Shown piece by piece: positions 44,782-54,183 of a DNA stretch of 54,183 nt; positions within the stretch are counted from its first letter, which is position 1; each line of letters starts with the position of its first letter. The notes beneath the pieces were generated by a model that did no database searches, was not told where the DNA came from, and saw only the letters and a list, made by a program, of their open reading frames with translations. The stretch is from Iodidimonas nitroreducens (GTDB taxonomy: Bacteria; Pseudomonadota; Alphaproteobacteria; Sphingomonadales; Rhodothalassiaceae): NCBI GenBank assembly GCA_000710935.1, contig BAYV01000027.1:1-54183 (forward strand). The letters are read 5' to 3'. The position numbers were made by a program, and so were the translations under genes.

Positions 44782-46161
44782 TTATTCGCCGGGCTGGGGA
44801 TATAAAATCTCCACACGGCGGTTTTGCGGTTCGCGCACCCCGTCATTGGTGGGCACCAGCGGGTCAAGCTCGCCTTTGGCAAGCGTGGTCATCACCCCGT
44901 CCGGCACCCCGATGCGGGCCAAAGCCTCTTTCACCTGATCCGCGCGCCTTTGCGATAATCCTTCATTATAGGTTTGCGGCCCAGCCTTATCCGCATGGCC
45001 CACAAGCTCAACCCGGGCAATGCCATATTTGGCAAAGGCATCGGCCGCATCCTGCAATATCTGCTGGGCATCCGCTGTTATCTTTGTGCTGTCAAAATCG
45101 AAAAACACGATGAAGGGGCCGATTTCGGGGGCCAGAACATCCACCACCACCGTAGCCGTTGCCACATCGCCCGCATCGTCTTGAATGCTGTAGGTAAAGC
45201 GATCCTGACCAACAAAGCGGGGGTCAGCCTGATAGCGCAAACGACCCGCCTCGCCGCGTGTAATGGTGCCATGCCCGGCTTCACCAATGGTGGCAATGCC
45301 GGTGATCGAGCCATCAGCATCACGATCATTGCCCAACACATTAATCTCAACACCTTCTCCCGCCATCACCCGGGCGCGATCATCATTGGCCTGCGGTGGT
45401 TGATTAACTGCTACAGGAGCCGGTGCAGGAGCCGGTGCGGCGGTGCGTTTGGGGGCCGCCTGGCCATTGCCGCCAAAGGCATAGCGCAGGCCAAAAAGCA
45501 CGGAATGCGCCTTGTATTTCGCTTCTGCATCGATGCGATCCGCCACCCGAAGATCGCTTTGACCCGTCACCAGAAAGCGATAGCCCACTTCCGCCGTCCA
45601 ATGCTCGCTCAGGGCCGAACTGAAACCAGCCAAAGCCTGAAAAGCCGGTTCCGCATCATTATTGTTCAAAAGGGATTCGCCGCTGGCCAAGCGATATTCC
45701 AAATCCACCACAGCCATCCCAAGGCCAACCCCCAGATAAGGCTGAAATCCGCGCACAACGGGCACATCATAGATAGCATTGAGCATGAAGGTCGATGCGG
45801 TGGCGCGGGTTTCATCTAAGGCCACAGGCCCCGAAAAAGGCGCAAGGCCCAAAGCGGCTCCAGCACCCCCATCCTCACGCACATCAAGCCTATCAAGATC
45901 ATTGCGGCGATAAAGGTATTCAAGCTCCAGGCGAATAGGCTTGAAATCATAACCAAAAGCGCCGCCCAGAACGAACCCGGTATCGCGCTCATCTTTTGAT
46001 CTGAAATCGCCTTCCAATGCCTCGTCATGAGCCCAGTTGATCCCGGCCCGCACAGCACCATAAAAATTTCCGGCCTCGCCTTGGGCTGTTTCTTGCGCCA
46101 TCGCCAATGCCCCGAATGGCAATAAGCTGCATGATGCCAACAAAACCAATGATATTCTCAC
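44782..46161 (-). CDS. OmpA-family outer membrane protein with inserted Ig-like domain
   Basis: The 459-residue protein has a signal peptide (1-22, ALAMAQ), an eight-stranded OmpA-like barrel (about 30-230), an Ala/Pro linker (233-253), one Ig/cadherin-like 'Big' module (254-342, with VLGNDRDADGSI and DRFTYSIQDD), and a C-terminal OmpA peptidoglycan-binding domain (350-459, FFDFDSTKIT and SQRRADQVKEAL). The GTG start at 46161 follows AAGGGG by six bases; the earlier ATG at 46212 precedes the signal peptide awkwardly. It should tether the outer membrane to peptidoglycan. The module between barrel and anchor is unusual. Confidence 0.88.
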   Translation of the reverse strand: MRISLVLLASCSLLPFGALAMAQETAQGEAGNFYGAVRAGINWAHDEALEGDFRSKDERDTGFVLGGAFGYDFKPIRLELEYLYRRNDLDRLDVREDGGAGAALGLAPFSGPVALDETRATASTFMLNAIYDVPVVRGFQPYLGVGLGMAVVDLEYRLASGESLLNNNDAEPAFQALAGFSSALSEHWTAEVGYRFLVTGQSDLRVADRIDAEAKYKAHSVLFGLRYAFGGNGQAAPKRTAAPAPAPAPVAVNQPPQANDDRARVMAGEGVEINVLGNDRDADGSITGIATIGEAGHGTITRGEAGRLRYQADPRFVGQDRFTYSIQDDAGDVATATVVVDVLAPEIGPFIVFFDFDSTKITADAQQILQDAADAFAKYGIARVELVGHADKAGPQTYNEGLSQRRADQVKEALARIGVPDGVMTTLAKGELDPLVPTNDGVREPQNRRVEILYPQPGE

Positions 46162-46330
46162 GATGATCCCCTTATAAACGCAAATATTATGTCTTACCGA
46201 CCACTGTGGCATATCCTAACGCACCGCCTCAAACAGCGCCAGATGAGCCTTTAAATTTATAGCCTTTAAAATTTGTCGAAATCATGATGATCATGATCTT
46301 AGGTTGTTGCACGCGCAGATCAATCTCCAC

Positions 46331-46828
46331 TCAATTGCCGATCAGTCCATGGGTGCGTAGCATCGATAAAATCTGCCCCAGCGTGGCTCTCGCCTCCGCA
46401 TCGATGATCTCGCCGCCCAAGGGATCGGCAATCGCAGACTGGCGCGGCCCCACCACCTGTTGCCCCCAGATGGTAAAGCGATCCGCCCACACATCGCCGC
46501 TGCGCCAGAATGTGCCATCATAAATCGTATCAAACAGGCGATCCGCAAGCCAGGCCCGCATTCCGGTGACCGGCGGCACAAAAACCCAGCCCCCATCAAG
46601 CCATTGGGCAATCTTGTTTTCATGCCCGGCCCAGGCCCCCGATGCCCCGGCCGCCACGATCCATGCCTGACCATTTTGCGGTTCTTCCGGGGGAGCGGCC
46701 AAAACAGAGCTTTCTATATGCAAATGCAGCAAAAGATCGATGCGGGCAATCGCCTCATTATGGGTGATTTCTTTTTGAGACTGATTGGTCAAAATAAAAG
46801 GAAAGGCATATCTTGGGGATTGAGTCAT
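46331..46828 (-). CDS. DUF2793 phage/GTA-associated protein
   Basis: The 165-residue protein matches DUF2793: FPFILTNQSQKEITHNEAI, then WIVAAGASGAWAGHENKIAQW and WVFVPPVTGMRAW. DUF2793 proteins occur at the distal end of tail modules in alphaproteobacterial prophages and GTA-like clusters; a tail-tip or fibre-associated role is inferred. It follows the gp15-like gene by 57 bases on the same strand, with a GGAGA ribosome site. It is probably the last gene of the tail cluster, since the next gene downstream is the unrelated OmpA homologue. Confidence 0.82.
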   Translation of the reverse strand: MTQSPRYAFPFILTNQSQKEITHNEAIARIDLLLHLHIESSVLAAPPEEPQNGQAWIVAAGASGAWAGHENKIAQWLDGGWVFVPPVTGMRAWLADRLFDTIYDGTFWRSGDVWADRFTIWGQQVVGPRQSAIADPLGGEIIDAEARATLGQILSMLRTHGLIGN

Positions 46829-46885
46829 GATGGTCTCCGGTACACATATTCTGAAATGAAGCTGACGATTTGATCGCGAAATTGG

Positions 46886-49153
46886 CTATGCCATGTCCAC
46901 AAAGCCGGATGCGGCAAAGCCGCGCCCGACACTGGCGCTCATCTGATACAGGGCAATCTCGATCCGGCTTTGGGGGCTGCCGAAATCCGCCATTTGCTGA
47001 TCAAGGCTATAGATCAGCGATGGGGTTGATGTGCTCAGGGTCCGCAGGCGTGTCCCGTTCGAGAGGATATCAAGCTCATAGCCCTCAGCCTCTTCACCCA
47101 AAGGCACATCGCGGCCATCAAGCCAATCGCCCCCCACCCGCGTGCGCCTCAGCCATTGGATGGCAAGATCAAGATCAGGCAGCCGCTGGGCCCGCACATG
47201 CACGGGCGCCAAGGGCATCAGGGCGCGCCCACCATAGCTGAAAACACTGGCATCCGTGTCATCAAGGGCCGCATTGACCGAAACCGCCTTTATCAGGGTT
47301 GATTGCCCGAAGAGGGCCACGGGCGCATCGATCTCTATAAGCGCGCCGCCATCAAGCAAAATGAATCTTTCCCCCGCCTGATGCCCGTGCATCGCCCATT
47401 CCGTTCCATTACGACCCCGTAACAAGCCCCTTAACCTATAGCGACCATCCGGCTCCAAATGGGCATTGCGGAACTGAATGATCTCATCGCCTACCACCGC
47501 CACATTGGCACCATTAAGCACTGCCAAAGCCGAACGGCTTTCCAAAGCCATGTCGGGGCGCACCAGCCTTATGAACAGCTCATGATGTTCATCCCAATAA
47601 ACCGCAGTCCCCGCAGGCAGGGTCGTCACCGTTTCCCCGATGATGGCGCTGGCCCGGCTGCTGGTGATGAGATCGTAATTTTCGCCCTGATCGCGCGACA
47701 GATAAACCGATCCCCCCCGCCAACCCGGCGAGGGCCCAGCCATTGCCGCCAGCAATCGGGGCGTACCCGCAACAACACCCGAGCCAAAACCCAGGCCTGG
47801 CAGATCCAGCAAATGCACAAGGCTGATGCCCACCGGCAAAACCACCGGCGGGGTAAAGGTCCCGCTCGCCGCACCGGCCAGAACCAGATCCGGCAAGGGC
47901 CCAATGGGATGGGCGGTCACCTCCACATGATCGGCAGCAATCGTCATCTCGGTGATCAAAAGGCGGAACATGCGGCCATCGACCGGATAAACGATCCGGT
48001 CCCCCACCTCTAAAGTGGCATAATCGGATGGTAATAAAAGCTGGTGATTTTCCTGTTTCATCCAGGATAAGGCCAGCAAAAGTTCGGCCTGCTTTTTGGC
48101 CCGATCCGCCGTCACAAAAAGCGGGCTATCAACAGTAAAGCGGCGCTCCGTATGGCTTTGCTGGCGGCGGGCGCGCTGAACCGAGGGCTGGAAATCACGC
48201 TGAGGATCACCATAACGCACGGCCATTTCCTGCCATAAATCCGCACCCTGCTCCCGCTCGATCCGCACCGAAAACCGATCCCCAGAACCATCGGTTGCTG
48301 CCGTGCCCAGATCTTTGAGCGGCACGGTCCGTTCATCGCCGCTCAAAAGCCCGCGAAACCCCAAAGCCCCGGAACCTTCAGAAGCACTGGCCGGAAACAG
48401 GGCCAAAACACCCTCCATCGCCGCCCGTGCCGCAATATCCCGGGCCACGGCCAGCCCGGTGATCGGCTGATCCATATCGAGAAGGGCAATATCCCTCATG
48501 CCTGCCTCAGCGCCGATCTGTTGCAATAATCGGCCAGATGTCAGCCCCTCATCCGCCATCACCTCAAAGCTCAGATTAGGGGCGCGATTGGCAAATTCAG
48601 CCAGTTCCAGACCTTCTAAAACGGCATAGGCCAGCCCGCGAAAGGCCGGGGCATTGGCCACACCTTCATGGGCTTCGATCAGGGGATCGGGTTCTTGCGT
48701 TTCCAGCCCGCGATAAACCCGCAGGCGCGCAGGCGAAAGCCACGCCCCCGCCTGATCGCGCAATAATTTTCCATCCGCCCAGATCCGGCCGATATCAAGG
48801 ATCGGGCGGGCGCTCAGCCCCACCGCCATAGAGACGGAATAGCTGAATTCCACCGTGGTGGCGGATTTTGCCCCCTTACCGCCCGAAGATTGCTTTGATT
48901 GCGTGCGCTTTTCAATCAGGCCGCTCGACCAAAGAACATTGCCCGCCACCCGCGCCGTGCCAAAAACCAATGGAATGGGCGATCCAAGGGCCGAGCTTTG
49001 AACGCTCAGATCATCAAGACGCGGCCCTTCCCGCTCCCCACCATTGCCAAAAAAAATCGAGCGATCGATGATCCCGCCCACAGCGGCCCCCAAAAGCCCC
49101 CCGATGGATCCACCAAGAGCCGTCCCAACCGTGCGCAAAAGCAAACTGGCCAT
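46886..49153 (-). CDS. GTA/phage tail baseplate protein (gp15-like, short form)
   Basis: The 755-residue protein corresponds to the large host-contact protein at the end of GTA tail clusters. It begins with a Gly/Ala-rich hydrophobic segment (MASLLLRTVGTALGGSIGG) and the SPIPLVFGTARVAGNVLW motif. A middle domain (LFVTADRAKKQAELLL, then LEVGDRIVYPVDG) and a C-terminal RLRGLLRGRNGTEW segment follow. Rhodobacter-type gp15 is about 1300 residues and contains a TIM-barrel insert; none is present here. The start at 49153 overlaps the gp14 stop (TAATG). An in-frame extension to 49339 lies inside gp14. Confidence 0.82.
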   Translation of the reverse strand: MASLLLRTVGTALGGSIGGLLGAAVGGIIDRSIFFGNGGEREGPRLDDLSVQSSALGSPIPLVFGTARVAGNVLWSSGLIEKRTQSKQSSGGKGAKSATTVEFSYSVSMAVGLSARPILDIGRIWADGKLLRDQAGAWLSPARLRVYRGLETQEPDPLIEAHEGVANAPAFRGLAYAVLEGLELAEFANRAPNLSFEVMADEGLTSGRLLQQIGAEAGMRDIALLDMDQPITGLAVARDIAARAAMEGVLALFPASASEGSGALGFRGLLSGDERTVPLKDLGTAATDGSGDRFSVRIEREQGADLWQEMAVRYGDPQRDFQPSVQRARRQQSHTERRFTVDSPLFVTADRAKKQAELLLALSWMKQENHQLLLPSDYATLEVGDRIVYPVDGRMFRLLITEMTIAADHVEVTAHPIGPLPDLVLAGAASGTFTPPVVLPVGISLVHLLDLPGLGFGSGVVAGTPRLLAAMAGPSPGWRGGSVYLSRDQGENYDLITSSRASAIIGETVTTLPAGTAVYWDEHHELFIRLVRPDMALESRSALAVLNGANVAVVGDEIIQFRNAHLEPDGRYRLRGLLRGRNGTEWAMHGHQAGERFILLDGGALIEIDAPVALFGQSTLIKAVSVNAALDDTDASVFSYGGRALMPLAPVHVRAQRLPDLDLAIQWLRRTRVGGDWLDGRDVPLGEEAEGYELDILSNGTRLRTLSTSTPSLIYSLDQQMADFGSPQSRIEIALYQMSASVGRGFAASGFVDMA

Positions 49154-49635
49154 TATTCTATCCCCGGAAAACGAAAGCCGCAGTGAATGGAGCGCCGCCA
49201 AGCGGCATCCATGCGATGTTCGATCACTTTGCCCACGCGCTCGCAGGCATGGATGATGCCCTTGCCGGTCGTAATACCGGCATGGCTCACCCCGCCGCCT
49301 TCCAGGGATAAACAGATCATATCCCCGGTTTCGGGCCAATCGACAGGGGTAAAGCCGGCCGCCACCGCCCCTTTCAAAAGGCGATCATCGCGAAAACTGC
49401 GCGGATATCCGCTTTGGTCATAGCGGCTGAGATCAAGCTCCCAGGCCACCCACAAGATCAGCCCCACACAATCGAAGCCGTGTTGAGGCGTCCGCCCCTG
49501 ATGGCGAAAGGGGGTTCCCAAAGCCGATCTGGCCGTCACTAAAATATCAGATTGTGAAACCGCTCTTCTATTTTGCGCACTGCCTGTGCTATCGCTTTTC
49601 TCTGAACAGGCAATATCCGGTCCGCAACCGATCAT
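49153..49635 (-). CDS. NlpC/P60 peptidase of GTA tail (gp14-like)
   Basis: A 160-residue cysteine peptidase. The catalytic Cys56 is in HGFDCVGLILW and His118 in VSHAGI, with a further His129 in the following strand. GTA gp14 proteins cut cell-wall peptides during DNA delivery. The conserved core starts near TARSALGTPFRHQG. The N-terminal 30 residues are atypical and the start is uncertain: 49635 keeps it clear of the divergent gene at 49661, while 49662 and 49680 would overlap it. Its stop overlaps the gp15-like start. Confidence 0.82.
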   Translation of the reverse strand: MIGCGPDIACSEKSDSTGSAQNRRAVSQSDILVTARSALGTPFRHQGRTPQHGFDCVGLILWVAWELDLSRYDQSGYPRSFRDDRLLKGAVAAGFTPVDWPETGDMICLSLEGGGVSHAGITTGKGIIHACERVGKVIEHRMDAAWRRSIHCGFRFPGIE

Positions 49636-49660
49636 CGCCTCATCACCATAGTGAGGAATC

Positions 49661-50623
49661 ATGGACGTCAACTCTTTCATTATCTATCTGCACGAACTTC
49701 GCAATCAGTGCCTCTACACCCATTCGGCGCTGAATATTTTCAACCAGTGCCTTGAGCAGAAAAACCAGACAGGCGTTCTGTTTGCCGGGCAATCGGCACT
49801 CTCTGCAGCGGCTCAGGTCGGGGCTATTTTATGGCCATCGCGCGCCCGTGCCCGTCGCCGGGGCGAAGTGCTGCGCGAAAAGCTGCAGCTCCCTGAAAGC
49901 CATGCTTTAGGCGACCGCCGCTTTGTCGAGCTGTGGGAACATGCCGATGAAAAACTCGATGATTGGGTCAAAACCACGAAGGGCGAGCGCGTTCTGTTCG
50001 ATTTCGTGGGCGATCCCAAAACCATCAATCTGCCCGGTTTGAAAGAATCGAGCGTGTATCGGCTTTATGATACCACCAGCCAGATTCTGGTTTTTCGGGG
50101 CGTGGGCTATAATCTGGGCAATCTTGCCAAAGCCATTGAAGAAATCGGTCGCCGCGCGGAAGTGCTCATGAAACAAATCATGGAGCAAAGCCAGACCGCG
50201 CAAAATGCCCAAAATCCCAATGGTCAGGACAGCGCAAACGGCCCTGCTACAAGCCCGGCTCCATCCGCCAGTGGGCCGCAGATGGGCCTTGGCGGAGCCG
50301 GCGAAGGTCGCGCCGAAGAACCCGCCAATGATAGCGCAGACGATACTGATAGCATCAGCCCCCTGAAAACAGAGGCGCCGCTGGCCGATGAACCCGCCAG
50401 CCAAGCCCCGGCCACAGAAGCCAAAAAGGCTGAGACCCCGGTTGAAGCCAAGCCGGAAACCAAGGCTCCCGCAAAAGCTGAGACCAGAGCCCCCGCCAAA
50501 GCCCCTGCTAAATCGGGTGCCAAGGCACCAGCCAAGGCAGCAGCGAAAACCAGCGATGCCAAAAAGCCCACAAAAAGTGCGGCCAGTAAAAAACCAGCGG
50601 CCAAATCAGGCAAAGACACCTGA
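49661..50623 (+). CDS. Opposite-strand gene in tail cluster; possible HEPN-like domain with histone-like tail
   Basis: The 320-residue protein is not one I can name. Residues 1-175 are a compact, mostly helical domain with ILWPSRARARRRGEVLREKL and RRFVELWEHADEKLDDW; R87-x6-H94 fits the R-x4-6-H spacing of HEPN nucleases, and R14-x6-H21 is a second candidate. Residues 180-255 are acidic and polar, and 256-320 are an Ala/Lys/Pro-rich tail (KAPAKA repeats) like bacterial histone H1-type DNA-binding tails. It starts with ATG behind GAGGA and lies antisense between gp13 and gp14, which are normally adjacent. A cargo or defence gene is one reading; function is unproven. Confidence 0.7.
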   Translation: MDVNSFIIYLHELRNQCLYTHSALNIFNQCLEQKNQTGVLFAGQSALSAAAQVGAILWPSRARARRRGEVLREKLQLPESHALGDRRFVELWEHADEKLDDWVKTTKGERVLFDFVGDPKTINLPGLKESSVYRLYDTTSQILVFRGVGYNLGNLAKAIEEIGRRAEVLMKQIMEQSQTAQNAQNPNGQDSANGPATSPAPSASGPQMGLGGAGEGRAEEPANDSADDTDSISPLKTEAPLADEPASQAPATEAKKAETPVEAKPETKAPAKAETRAPAKAPAKSGAKAPAKAAAKTSDAKKPTKSAASKKPAAKSGKDT

Positions 50624-50642
50624 TAGCGATCCGGGTTTGCCC

Positions 50643-51485
50643 CTAAAGCAGACCCGGATAATCAAGCAGGGCATCCGTACCGGGAACAAAGGGATCGCCG
50701 CGAAAATTGATGATATTGTCAAATTTATCGCGGCAGATCGCCAATGTTTTATCGCACCCGGCGATGATGGTAAAAATATCCCCCACCGCCATGGGCTGTG
50801 GCGGTGCCTGTAAAAGATTGATCTGATCGCCTTGATGGCTGCGCACCTCGCTGATCAGGCCGCCATTTTTTCCCGTATGCCAGCGGATTTTCCCGAAATC
50901 ATACCAGCGCGCAGGTTTCGGGCCAAAGGAGCCGCGAAAGGTGGTTTCATTGATGATCGCCGTCAGCCCGGCGGTTTCGGTGAAGGCATTGAGGGATTTC
51001 TTGCACCGGCGATCCCCCAATTCGGCGCGACAACCCGGCGAATAGCTTTCCGTCATCACCGCTGAAAGGCCATGGGTCATCCCCCGCATTTCGGCCTGAA
51101 AACGATCATCGATCCGGGTGATCCGCCCCAATGACCCCTGTTTGATCAACAGGCTGCCCGCATCCGGGTCCATCCAATTGACCAGAAACACCCAAATCCG
51201 GGCATCATCAAACCGTCCGCTGGAAAGATCTTCGGCCAAAAGGCTTCGGCTCATCAGCACCCCATCGATTTCCAGATTATCGATGGCCAGATCCGCAGTT
51301 TCCCGCGCCGCACTGGCCGAAAGCCCGCCATCGGCGCGATAAATCAGGCCATCGACCCGCAAATCGCGATCATGGGATGTCAAAGCCAGCATAACCCCAT
51401 CGCGTCTTTGCAGCCGCCAGCACAGGGCTAGGCTGGTCACATCTTCTGCCAGATGCCGGCCAAAAGCCTGGGTAATCGCGCGCAT
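50643..51485 (-). CDS. GTA/phage tail hub protein, DUF2163 (gp13-like)
   Basis: The 280-residue protein is the gp13 equivalent. DUF2163 features include LALCWRLQRRDGVMLALTSHDRDL near the N-terminus and the C-terminal NFRGDPFVPGTD. Four cysteines are spaced C152-x8-C161 and C244-x6-C251, as expected for the metal or iron-sulfur site of related tail hub proteins. It should form the hub between the tail tube and the tip. It starts three bases after the gp12-like stop, with GGGAG upstream. Its 3' end faces the opposite-strand gene across 19 bases. Confidence 0.88.
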   Translation of the reverse strand: MRAITQAFGRHLAEDVTSLALCWRLQRRDGVMLALTSHDRDLRVDGLIYRADGGLSASAARETADLAIDNLEIDGVLMSRSLLAEDLSSGRFDDARIWVFLVNWMDPDAGSLLIKQGSLGRITRIDDRFQAEMRGMTHGLSAVMTESYSPGCRAELGDRRCKKSLNAFTETAGLTAIINETTFRGSFGPKPARWYDFGKIRWHTGKNGGLISEVRSHQGDQINLLQAPPQPMAVGDIFTIIAGCDKTLAICRDKFDNIINFRGDPFVPGTDALLDYPGLL

Positions 51486-51488
51486 GGC

Positions 51489-53846
51489 CTACTCCCTGAT
51501 TTCCAGAAGGCGGATGGCCGGGATCTGCCCGGCATCAAAAGCATCGAGGGATAAAGCGAGCCGGTCCTCGGCAAAGCGCACCGGCACATCAAACAGATAT
51601 CCCGCCGTGATCACCGCGCCCGCCAGCGGCGGGCTATCAAAGCGCACCAGCCCCATAGCGGCATCGCAGGTCCAGCCCTCAAGGCGTTCAACCCCATCGA
51701 TGGCAAGGCGCACGGTTTCTTTTTCCGGACGGGTGATCCGCCGCAAATGCGCTGTTTCCCCCGCTCCATAGCGCTTGATCAATTGAAAATCGCGCGTCAC
51801 CCCATCACCGGTGCCGATCTGCTGATCAAGGGGGGATGGCGTCCCCATATCCACCGCCGAGCTATGATCCGCCCAATCGCGAAAGCGAAAGCCATAGGCC
51901 CGCCCCGCCCGCGCCCGGAAAAACGCCATCAGAACCGAAAGATCGTGAGCCGAGCGCAAACCGCTCGATAGATCATAAACAGCACGGGCCTGATCCCATT
52001 CCCGGTTGCGCCGTTCATGCCCCGAAGCCGTTGAGACCACCCGGGTGGAAAATCCCGGCCCGCCGGTCGATCCAAAGCTCACCGCTTCGGGCAGGCGCAC
52101 ATCATGAAATCCGGTCATATCCGGCTCCTCCATATCCTGATCAAAAACCACAACCCCATCGCGCATGATCTGGGTATAGGCCCAGATCACCCGTTCGGAA
52201 AATCCGCGCTTTTCGGCATCGATCAAGGCCCATTCGATATTGGGCCAGATATGCAGATCTTCGGGAAGCAGAACGAAACCACTGAAAAACTGCGTTTTAT
52301 TAAGCGGATAACCCAATTCGGCCACCACCGTTTCAATGCCCTTTTCATGGGCATACCAATCCCCATCGATGACATGATCATAATCTTCGATCTGCACGAA
52401 ATCATAAGCCGGATAAGCCCAATGGGAGGCCGGGAAATTGGCTGTTTTCAGCATCGGTGCTTGCGCATCAAGCACTTGTGGCGTGAAAAACAACAAGGTC
52501 ACCTGCGCCCCGGAATAGCGATTTTTCACATGATCACGCAGCCGGTGGGTGGCGGCCCCCAGCTTTTCCCCCAGCCAATCGAGAAAGAGCTGCTGATCAC
52601 CATCGGGGCTTTCCAAAGCACTTTGATGCGCCACAGGCATCTCCAGCCCGGTTTCGAGTAAATAAAGCGCGCGTGTGGCCTCATCATAAAAATGCGGCAC
52701 CCGTCCGCCGCCCAGCGATACCCACCACCAGGGCTCGCCAATCTGAAAAACCGGAGGCAGGCCCGCCGCCATCATCAGATCACCAAAGGCCGAATAAACC
52801 CGTTCAAGATAAAAAAGCGCATCCCCATTCGTGGGGGCGATCAGGGTTGAAGGCGGCTCCCAGCCGGTCAGGGCACGATTGCCGTCATAATCGCGCTGCG
52901 CCCATTCATCCGGGGCATTCGCGGCAAAAATCTCAAACGACAAAGACAAAGCCAAAGTCATCTTCATCTGTACCAAACGGGCAAACAGATCCTGATGCCA
53001 GGCCCGGGTGGCGAGATTGAGCGCCGGAGCATCAGGATCGACGACCCAGCGTTCCTCATCAGCCCGCCAGCCCAGCGTATAATAATGGCTCATCCCCACA
53101 TAATGGGTAAACCAGTCGCGATAGCCCATCTGCACGATATTGCGCAGCAATCGGGCGGGGGTGATATTAAAGCTATCATCATAGCCATTGGCGATGCGCA
53201 CGCTATGGGGCTTCATGGCGTCATCACCAAGGGCCAGATCGGCCCGCCCGCCACGCACCGATAGATCGCTGATCAGCACCGATCCTTCAACAGCACCGCC
53301 CGTGAGCGGGGCTTCATCATCAGGATCATAGCCGGGTGCGACCATCGAAATGAACATCCGATCCAGATCGCCGGCATAAACCGGATCGGCCTCGGCAGGT
53401 AGGAAAAAGCCCCCGTCCAGATCATCGAAATCAAGGGTGATGATCGCATTTGTCGCGGTGCCCACAGCATAGTTCCACAGCCTGACAAACCAGGTGCGCG
53501 GTACGCCTGCGGCATCCCGCCCCTCGATGGTAAGGGTCGGGCCAAAGCTTTCGGATAATGTGCGCAAGCCCGTGCTTTGCCAGCGAAAACGCAGCACAAG
53601 GCCCCGATAATCGCGGTTCGTTTCATAACCCAGCAAAGGATGATCGAAATGATCCTCGCTATCCCAGATGAGGCCCGCCAGATCATTGCGGCGATAAAAA
53701 ACCAAAGAGGCCCTGAGCGCCTCTCCACCGGGATTGGTCACCGCCGCCATCATCGGACGGGGGAAATTGACGGTCCAGAAACGCGGATCGAACCGGGTGA
53801 CGGATCGCTCGTCAAAGCGATCCGCCTGTGAGGCCAGCCACAGCAT
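51489..53846 (-). CDS. GTA gp12-like protein (DUF2460) fused to large N-terminal region
   Basis: The frame encodes 785 residues. The C-terminal 209 (577-785) are a full DUF2460/TIGR02217 distal tail protein (FSTRVVSTASGHERRNREWD, then FRARAGRAYGFRFRDWADHS). The first 200 residues are strand-rich (jelly-roll-like) and 200-570 look like an alpha/beta TIM-barrel-type domain (GYRDWFTHYVGMSHYYTLGW, GEPWWWVSLGGG). Ordinary gp12 is about 210 residues. A strong ribosome site and ATG lie in frame at 52131-52116, precisely at the domain boundary. It starts three bases after the tape measure stop. The N-terminal part may be a tail-sheath-like module; that is inference. Confidence 0.85.
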   Translation of the reverse strand: MLWLASQADRFDERSVTRFDPRFWTVNFPRPMMAAVTNPGGEALRASLVFYRRNDLAGLIWDSEDHFDHPLLGYETNRDYRGLVLRFRWQSTGLRTLSESFGPTLTIEGRDAAGVPRTWFVRLWNYAVGTATNAIITLDFDDLDGGFFLPAEADPVYAGDLDRMFISMVAPGYDPDDEAPLTGGAVEGSVLISDLSVRGGRADLALGDDAMKPHSVRIANGYDDSFNITPARLLRNIVQMGYRDWFTHYVGMSHYYTLGWRADEERWVVDPDAPALNLATRAWHQDLFARLVQMKMTLALSLSFEIFAANAPDEWAQRDYDGNRALTGWEPPSTLIAPTNGDALFYLERVYSAFGDLMMAAGLPPVFQIGEPWWWVSLGGGRVPHFYDEATRALYLLETGLEMPVAHQSALESPDGDQQLFLDWLGEKLGAATHRLRDHVKNRYSGAQVTLLFFTPQVLDAQAPMLKTANFPASHWAYPAYDFVQIEDYDHVIDGDWYAHEKGIETVVAELGYPLNKTQFFSGFVLLPEDLHIWPNIEWALIDAEKRGFSERVIWAYTQIMRDGVVVFDQDMEEPDMTGFHDVRLPEAVSFGSTGGPGFSTRVVSTASGHERRNREWDQARAVYDLSSGLRSAHDLSVLMAFFRARAGRAYGFRFRDWADHSSAVDMGTPSPLDQQIGTGDGVTRDFQLIKRYGAGETAHLRRITRPEKETVRLAIDGVERLEGWTCDAAMGLVRFDSPPLAGAVITAGYLFDVPVRFAEDRLALSLDAFDAGQIPAIRLLEIRE
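52116..52131 (-). promoter_or_regulatory. Internal ribosome binding site and ATG at gp12 domain boundary
   Basis: Read on the minus strand, GGAGGAG (52131-52125) is followed after six bases (CCGGAT) by ATG (52118-52116), in frame. This ATG is Met577 of the fusion and would start a stand-alone 209-residue DUF2460 protein of the usual gp12 length. Strength and spacing are near ideal. Confidence 0.7.
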
Positions 53847-53849
53847 GGC

Positions 53850-54179
53850 TCAATCAAACCTTTGGGCCTGTGCCAGCGCCCGACGCACCGACAAGGCAAT
53901 CTGCGTGGCGCTTTGCTGGCGGGCATCCGCCCCATCGCCGCCACCCGTCATATTGATAACAATGGAAATGGGCCGCCCACTGCCACCCGCCGCCGCCGGC
54001 CCCGAAGCCGGGCGATTGGGACGAATATCCCCGGCCGTGCGCGGCACAAACAATTCCGGCCCCTGTTCACCCACCATATAGGGCTGATTGGGGGTCACCG
54101 GACCCCCATGGGCGCGGCCCGGCAATCCCACCACACCAGATAGAAATGACGAGAAAATCCCCCCGCCACCAAAGCCGCC
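53850..54179 (-). CDS. Tail tape measure protein, C-terminal end (partial, gp11-like)
   Basis: Only the last 109 or so residues lie in the window. They are glycine-rich (GGFGGGGIFSSFLSG), then GRAHGGPVTPNQPYMVGEQGPE, LFVPRTAGDI and a C-terminal SVRRALAQAQRF. This GG/GE-GPE-LFVPR pattern is the hallmark of tape measure C-termini in GTAs and lambdoid phages. An in-frame TAG appears at 54182-54180, at the very edge, just before the glycine run; it may be a sequence-end error or a real break. The gene ends three bases before the gp12-like start. Confidence 0.75.
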   Translation of the reverse strand, partial: GGFGGGGIFSSFLSGVVGLPGRAHGGPVTPNQPYMVGEQGPELFVPRTAGDIRPNRPASGPAAAGGSGRPISIVINMTGGGDGADARQQSATQIALSVRRALAQAQRFD

Positions 54180-54183
54180 CTAC

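Follow-up and report, generated by a model that had tools for sequence, protein, structure and literature searches.

A conserved internal start codon in a fused sheath/distal tail protein gene of an RcGTA-like cluster probably gives rise to two nested products

The window, the whole stretch of 54,183 nucleotides from Iodidimonas nitroreducens that was analysed (contig BAYV01000027.1), carries a gene of 785 codons in which a sheath/TIM-barrel module is followed in one reading frame by a distal tail protein (Dit). Together with its neighbours it gives the order g12, g13, g14, g15, as in RcGTA-like head-tail clusters, and the features that matter here are the following.

51489..53846, minus strand: gene for the long product, a 785-residue sheath/TIM-Dit fusion (GTA g12), from its reading frame and profile matches
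53226..53801, minus strand: NCTSP_N domain (PF23844), residues 16-207 (Pfam, E 5.9e-86)
52155..53210, minus strand: TIM-barrel_NCTSP domain (PF23845), residues 213-564, a relative of phage N4 gp64 (Pfam, E 1.7e-115)
52113..52136, minus strand: acidic linker, residues 571-578, low-confidence (pLDDT <50) and probably disordered, which carries the internal Shine-Dalgarno (SD) sequence and start
52125..52131, minus strand: internal Shine-Dalgarno sequence GGAGGAG, read from the sequence, with an SD-like tract conserved in relatives
52116..52118, minus strand: internal ATG, codon 577, with ATG, GTG or TTG in 170/170 distinct fusion junctions
51489..52118, minus strand: predicted short product, a 209-residue distal tail protein (DUF2460/TIGR02217, Rcc01695 family), from profile matches
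50643..51485, minus strand: downstream hub gene g13 (TIGR02218), from profile matches
49153..49680, minus strand: NlpC/P60 peptidase gene g14 (PF00877 above cut-off, TIGR02219 below its cut-off)
46886..49339, minus strand: megatron-like gene g15 without a GTA_TIM domain, 5′ end provisional, from profile matches

The Dit part of the fusion is full length. DUF2460 (PF09343) covers residues 581-784 of the 785-residue protein in Pfam, and TIGR02217, "phage distal tail protein, Rcc01695 family", covers residues 580-784; the scores are 239.7 bits for TIGR02217 (cut-off 136.65) and 266.1 bits for PF09343 (cut-off 30.4), and the part that corresponds to the short product matches the RcGTA distal tail protein 6tba (4.4e-56). 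Ahead of it come PF23844 and then PF23845, both above cut-off and in the order of a non-contractile tail sheath module. The genome holds one Dit match and one TIM-barrel_NCTSP match. In an AlphaFold2 model built from 44 aligned sequences (mean pLDDT 89.5, pTM 0.76), pLDDT falls below 50 at residues 571-578, which lie between the TIM part and Dit and contain the internal start, and at residues 600-619 within Dit. The TIM part matches N4 gp64 (9lc0; phmmer 2.5e-66, 39% identity in Foldseek), the Foldseek matches to glycosidases and PgaB being more distant, and residues 11-89 match the large N4 sheath chain (8.8e-21).

Head and tape-measure genes are known only from a locus of the same genus (L050), where the genes upstream of g12 encode capsid, prohead protease, connector, tail completion and the C-terminus of a tape-measure protein; the window ends inside the gene before g12, and the 94-residue piece of that gene at the window edge had no Pfam match. 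By its genes, the locus is an RcGTA-like cluster. Its megatron-like gene (46886-49339) matches early and late stretches of the megatron profiles and reaches 519 of 800 bits against NF048004, i.e. below the cut-off. Between the hub and NlpC genes lies a gene on the opposite strand (window 49661-50623, plus strand) with an Ala/Lys-rich end and no Pfam match, which is present in 24 of 31 genomes, the source genome included, and among these are some that have no g12 match. In one genome (G013:C3:145256-146615) a short stretch resembling the sheath N-terminus adjoins this opposite-strand gene, which would fit the loss of a GTA cluster from around the gene.

A sequence-only reading of this DNA had pointed to a ribosome binding site and ATG inside the fusion gene, at the beginning of a standard DUF2460 protein, and both observations hold: minus strand 52131-52116 reads GGAGGAG CCGGAT ATG, with six bases between the Shine-Dalgarno sequence and an in-frame ATG, which is codon 577 of 785 and leaves 209 residues. 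The window contains two instances of GGAGG with an ATG 4-9 bases further on, where dinucleotide shuffles lead one to expect 20.4, and one of the two copies falls on a domain boundary. Window-wide, then, this combination is roughly ten-fold rarer than in the shuffled sequences. A small predicted hairpin holds the internal ATG in its loop (z -1.54 for a 51-nt fold; z 0.34 for a 91-nt fold around the start), and the start was covered neither by the 20 largest direct-repeat families nor by the 25 longest inverted-repeat pairs listed for 46000-54183. No 16S gene was found in four of four genomes searched for one (three Iodidimonas and one of the same family), and anti-SD strings were absent from them too; out of six genomes, two had such a string, both of them single-contig. 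A single internal site of this kind could be due to chance, a possibility against which its conservation at 170 junctions, described below, speaks.

Related loci were located via conserved peptides of the sheath part, not via the start, in two collection scans from which the best 80 each were taken. In a first set of 42 junctions, Dit opens with ATG, GTG or TTG in every case, one codon later in L025. The larger set began with 240 loci, 206 of which align across the junction and 171 of which are distinct; with L073 dropped as a stand-alone gene, 170 distinct fusion junctions remained, 78 from viral contigs, 69 from named genome contigs and 23 from other genomes. All 170 have a start codon at the Dit boundary (ATG 102, GTG 66, TTG 2), placed three codons before F580 in 163 and two codons before it in seven. 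The alignment of homologues that had been proposed as a check on the internal site thus produced no distinct fusion junction (0/170) without an internal start codon. Omission of four rows with a short upstream frame, L091 (internal TAA), L051 (contig edge) and L040 and L041 (frame breaks), gave a set of 166 sequences, and thinning this set to 90, 80, 70, 65 and 60% identity left 142, 110, 73, 42 and 22 sequences, each of which retains the start.

The reading frame upstream of the start is preserved as well. Not one of the 170 junctions has a stop in the 40 codons before F580, although the linker ranges from 9 to 19 residues after an RDG motif in the relatives. Because the linker frame is open in 170/170, the long product appears to have been kept as well as the start. 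A conserved internal Shine-Dalgarno sequence and start codon within an open frame, one criterion for a dual-product gene, were accordingly found at this locus and its relatives. In three relatives, too few to weigh, the upstream sheath part is broken by a stop or frame change and Dit is open with its start (L011/L091, L040, L041).

Codon choice at the junction suggests that the start itself is being maintained. Where the start position encodes valine, the codon is GTG in 66/66 cases, against a gene-wide GTG share of 55%; of the 101 columns that contain 20 or more valines, only the junction reaches 100%, the next column being at 91% and the median at 56%. The log10 P of this bias is -17.9 with rows treated as independent, and hence overstated. 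On a tree of the 166 sequences (FastTree, linker left out), the start codon has changed at least 31 times. The position can also slide: codon -2 is a start codon in 7/7 sequences in which codon -3 is none, vs 1/159 otherwise (Fisher 1.3e-11, a value that ignores phylogeny; the tree has five offset changes). Valines written only as GTG and a start that slides by one codon point to current selection at the level of the DNA.

The fusion is not a local event. A g12 match was found in 46 of 99 genomes and the fusion in 42 of them, the source genome being counted in both; the fusion lies within one match in 38 (one with an internal TAA) and in two pieces in four (one shortened frame, two broken frames and one across contigs). 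A class-wide sample had matches in 54 of 385 genomes, with full-length fusions in the source genome and three others of the same order; the remaining matches were mostly Dit alone, and in one genome (G255) Dit and sheath are separate genes. Named relatives include Sphingomonas, Sphingobium, Novosphingobium, Croceicoccus, Aurantiacibacter, Emcibacter MAGs and Iodidimonas, and identity goes down to about 43%; "order" and "group" here denote Iodidimonas plus families whose named members are Sphingomonadales, while NCBI places Iodidimonas in an order of its own. Because it is spread over this group at identities reaching down to about 43%, the fusion must be old within it, and the earlier suggestion of a recent fusion that had simply kept its old start is rejected, the more so given the GTG-only valines and the sliding start. 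Some part of the fusion was matched by 428 of 50,697 phage records, of which MT840053 alone covers at least 80% of the query. Both fusion parts are covered in MT840053.1 (L247), a 5.4-kb "Bacteriophage sp." record without annotation that derives from human faeces and may represent a piece of a GTA, not a phage. Within a partial coverage of the literature (titles and abstract openings), no fusion or internal start in GTA g12 was named, so that an earlier mention is possible; the words "fused" and "fusion" were likewise absent from the main text of the GTA papers in that partial coverage.

Fusions of the same module to a different partner provided a small control. In a second tail locus of Iodidimonas muriae (L043, 2192-5616), the sheath/TIM module is fused to the hub instead. 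The separate Dit gene of that locus overlaps by four bases the start of the 932-residue sheath/TIM-hub fusion. Nine distinct sheath-hub junctions, few and related, could be compared across residues 620-670 of the L043 protein, after exclusion of rows that do not align there in one piece and of two rows without hub sequence there. From 20 codons before the junction to 2 after it, none of the nine has a start with an SD energy of -8 or lower; in eight of them the QVMRDG stretch of the TIM part contains start-like codons, whose SD energies are -2.7 (six), -5.6 and -7.5, and the ninth (L252) has an ATG only, with -2.6. Since these junctions do without one, a strong internal start is not obligatory in a fusion.

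These observations bear on the possibility that the site is vestigial, that is, that only the fusion protein is made and the start and Shine-Dalgarno sequence are left over from the gene as it was before fusion. An ancestral start would indeed be expected at exactly this place, given that Dit is a short separate frame in other orders and that the RcGTA chain has about 210 residues. However, the fusion is old and widespread, yet the start is missing from none of the 170; it has been kept through at least 31 start-codon changes, with valine as GTG only, and through shifts by a codon, and the nine related sheath-hub fusions have no strong start at their junctions. We consider a vestigial site very unlikely.

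The Shine-Dalgarno sequence is strong at the junction, although three results given below weaken this signal. Mean pairing energy is -8.8 kcal/mol at the junction vs -3.3 at other codons, and it is -8 or lower at 62% of junctions vs 6% of other sites. At least four core bases are present in 156/166 junctions, against about 27% of random codons of the same genes, and an exact AGGAGG in 37/166, six or more bases being found at about 0.4% of random codons. With a median of -9.3, the internal start surpasses the best candidates for the gene's own start (-7.85, n=162) and for that of the hub gene (-6.4, n=152). By start-codon fraction (96%) the junction takes third place among 770 columns, and by SD energy it takes fourth; among the top columns listed no other combines start codons in more than half of rows with an SD energy below -7. 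The column at residue 377, after an invariant WWW, has a mean SD energy of -9.4, stronger than that of the junction, and an ATG in 76/166; we think that this is a by-product of tryptophan codons, the start there not being conserved.

Part of the signal at the junction could similarly be dictated by the protein, if Met or Val and the acidic linker were conserved for packing or as a protease site and the DNA signal were a by-product. The six residues before the start are E, D or G at 601/996 positions (166 sequences), residues that give GAG and GGA codons, and because the linker is so rich in Glu, Asp and Gly, synonymous resampling at the junction still averages -6.8 and covers most of the SD energy; 84% of sequences fall below the mean of their own synonymous null, but only 9/166 beat it at p<0.05. 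Selection on the protein, however, cannot produce a preference for GTG over other valine codons, the linker residues vary when compared by eye, and in the thinned set of 42 sequences the junction column exceeds the synonymous null with z -4.3 (rank 3 of 770). The columns of greatest excess in that set are 27-29, which coincide with or adjoin the gene's own start, and 680-683, the junction; the lowest eight contain one further column, 314, with an SD energy of just -1.95. Conservation at the level of the protein is thus a most improbable explanation. The same purine-rich site might instead serve as a pause signal, slowing the ribosome and aiding folding of the sheath/TIM part before Dit is made, with the start codon incidental. 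It has been suggested that intragenic Shine-Dalgarno-like tracts slow ribosomes down, although this is contested, and the site does lie in a low-confidence linker between domains. But a pause signal has no need of a start codon at a fixed distance, and it leaves unexplained both the GTG at 66/66 valines and the start that moves along by one codon, which makes it equally improbable.

Judged by comparison of sequences among relatives, the internal site is selected, and it very probably yields two proteins from one frame, the long sheath-Dit protein and a short Dit. A nested two-product gene, as is known for SctQ, is in our assessment highly likely to be the right explanation. Thus, of the two possibilities raised in the sequence-only reading, two products is strongly supported by the conserved start codon, Shine-Dalgarno sequence and open frame; its further idea that the putative two products set the ratio of tail parts is plausible. 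Ribosomes starting at 53846 would make the 785-residue sheath/TIM-Dit protein, while ribosomes binding the internal GGAGGAG would make the inferred 209-residue Dit alone in the same frame, and the strength of the internal Shine-Dalgarno sequence would set the supply of short subunits.

How two forms of Dit might be used is suggested by the RcGTA particle. According to the portion consulted of PMC7296036, a single hexamer of distal tail protein connects the tail, which is six-fold, with a three-fold baseplate made up of hub and megatron trimers. Its Dit subunits adopt different conformations at odd and even positions, and the N-terminal Ala2 of Dit takes part in the contacts with hub and megatron. 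As a long subunit would have no free Dit N-terminus, the ring would combine long and short subunits in a defined mixture, in which the long ones present the sheath/TIM module outside and the short ones supply the free N-terminus; three of each would be the simplest arrangement. We put forward such a mixed ring tentatively, as possible rather than probable. Two products could also be made with the short Dit forming the whole ring and the long form acting as an appendage or assembly factor, a reading that overlaps with the nested two-product gene. It has a precedent in SctQ, the short form of which is proposed in one system, in the excerpts consulted, to be a chaperone for the long form, but the long form here retains a complete conserved Dit domain, which an appendage would not need, and we regard this division of labor as somewhat unlikely.

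The sheath/TIM module may also be connected with a change elsewhere in the baseplate. Three domains project from the core of the RcGTA baseplate, one of them a peripheral megatron TIM barrel whose function is reported as unknown, in the consulted part of PMC13420450. The corresponding domain, GTA_TIM (PF13547), was not found in the source genome; it was absent in 29/29 fusion genomes tested and present in 6/17 without the fusion, in a hand-chosen set of 46 genomes in which the fusion genomes are one clade and therefore provide a single evolutionary contrast. Length variation of g12 and g15 is known in Sphingomonadales (PMC7360931, as far as consulted). Homology between the sheath TIM barrel and megatron GTA_TIM was considered and rejected, as profile comparison of six vs six sequences gave a probability of 0.8% and showed no relation. 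The sheath/TIM part on Dit may have taken the place of the megatron's TIM. That a TIM on the six-fold Dit ring replaced that of the megatron trimer, with a ring of three long and three short subunits keeping the match to the three-fold baseplate, is a more specific proposal, and an unlikely one.

The single open frame suggests one tail protein, and the comparison of relatives says two. If this is correct, a ring protein in two isoforms would here make up the RcGTA-type tail tip or help to build it, a parallel to type III secretion. A mixed ring would amount to a translational solution to a symmetry mismatch by one nested gene, and the step from six-fold to three-fold symmetry would become genetically testable by a silent change.

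Each part of this arrangement has known relatives. The TIM part and N-terminal residues resemble the non-contractile tail sheath proteins gp64/gp65 of phage N4 (PDB 9lc0, 9yf5), where gp64:gp65 heterodimers form a six-fold sheath around the tail (PMC12633501, in the portion consulted); in N4 the parts are on separate chains, and neither a Dit fusion nor a nested start is described in that portion. Rcc01695, the g12 product of RcGTA (PDB 6tba), is likewise a DUF2460/TIGR02217 protein encoded before the hub, peptidase and megatron genes, and the likeness extends to L050, the locus of the same genus in which g12 comes after a tape-measure-like gene; the RcGTA chain, however, is 210 residues by itself, whereas here it forms the C-terminal part of a 785-residue fusion. 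The sheath-hub fusions of sphingomonad phage-like loci (PHROG 6040 type) share the sheath/TIM module with a baseplate protein C-terminal to it and have a separate Dit gene adjoining, but their partner is the hub, not Dit, and the junction is without a strong internal start, so that the TIM-barrel module sits on different baseplate proteins in related loci. For the nested start itself, the closest parallel is SctQ/YscQ/SpaO of type III secretion, an unrelated protein for which a full-length and an internal-start C-terminal product arise from one frame and both contribute structurally to a ring or platform (PMC4295842, PMC12132427, both as excerpted); in Yersinia, the internal-start product YscQC is needed for assembly of full-length YscQ, according to the same part of PMC4295842. 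Unlike in SctQ, the short product predicted here is a complete member of a stand-alone phage/GTA family, Dit, and is encoded in a GTA tail cluster.
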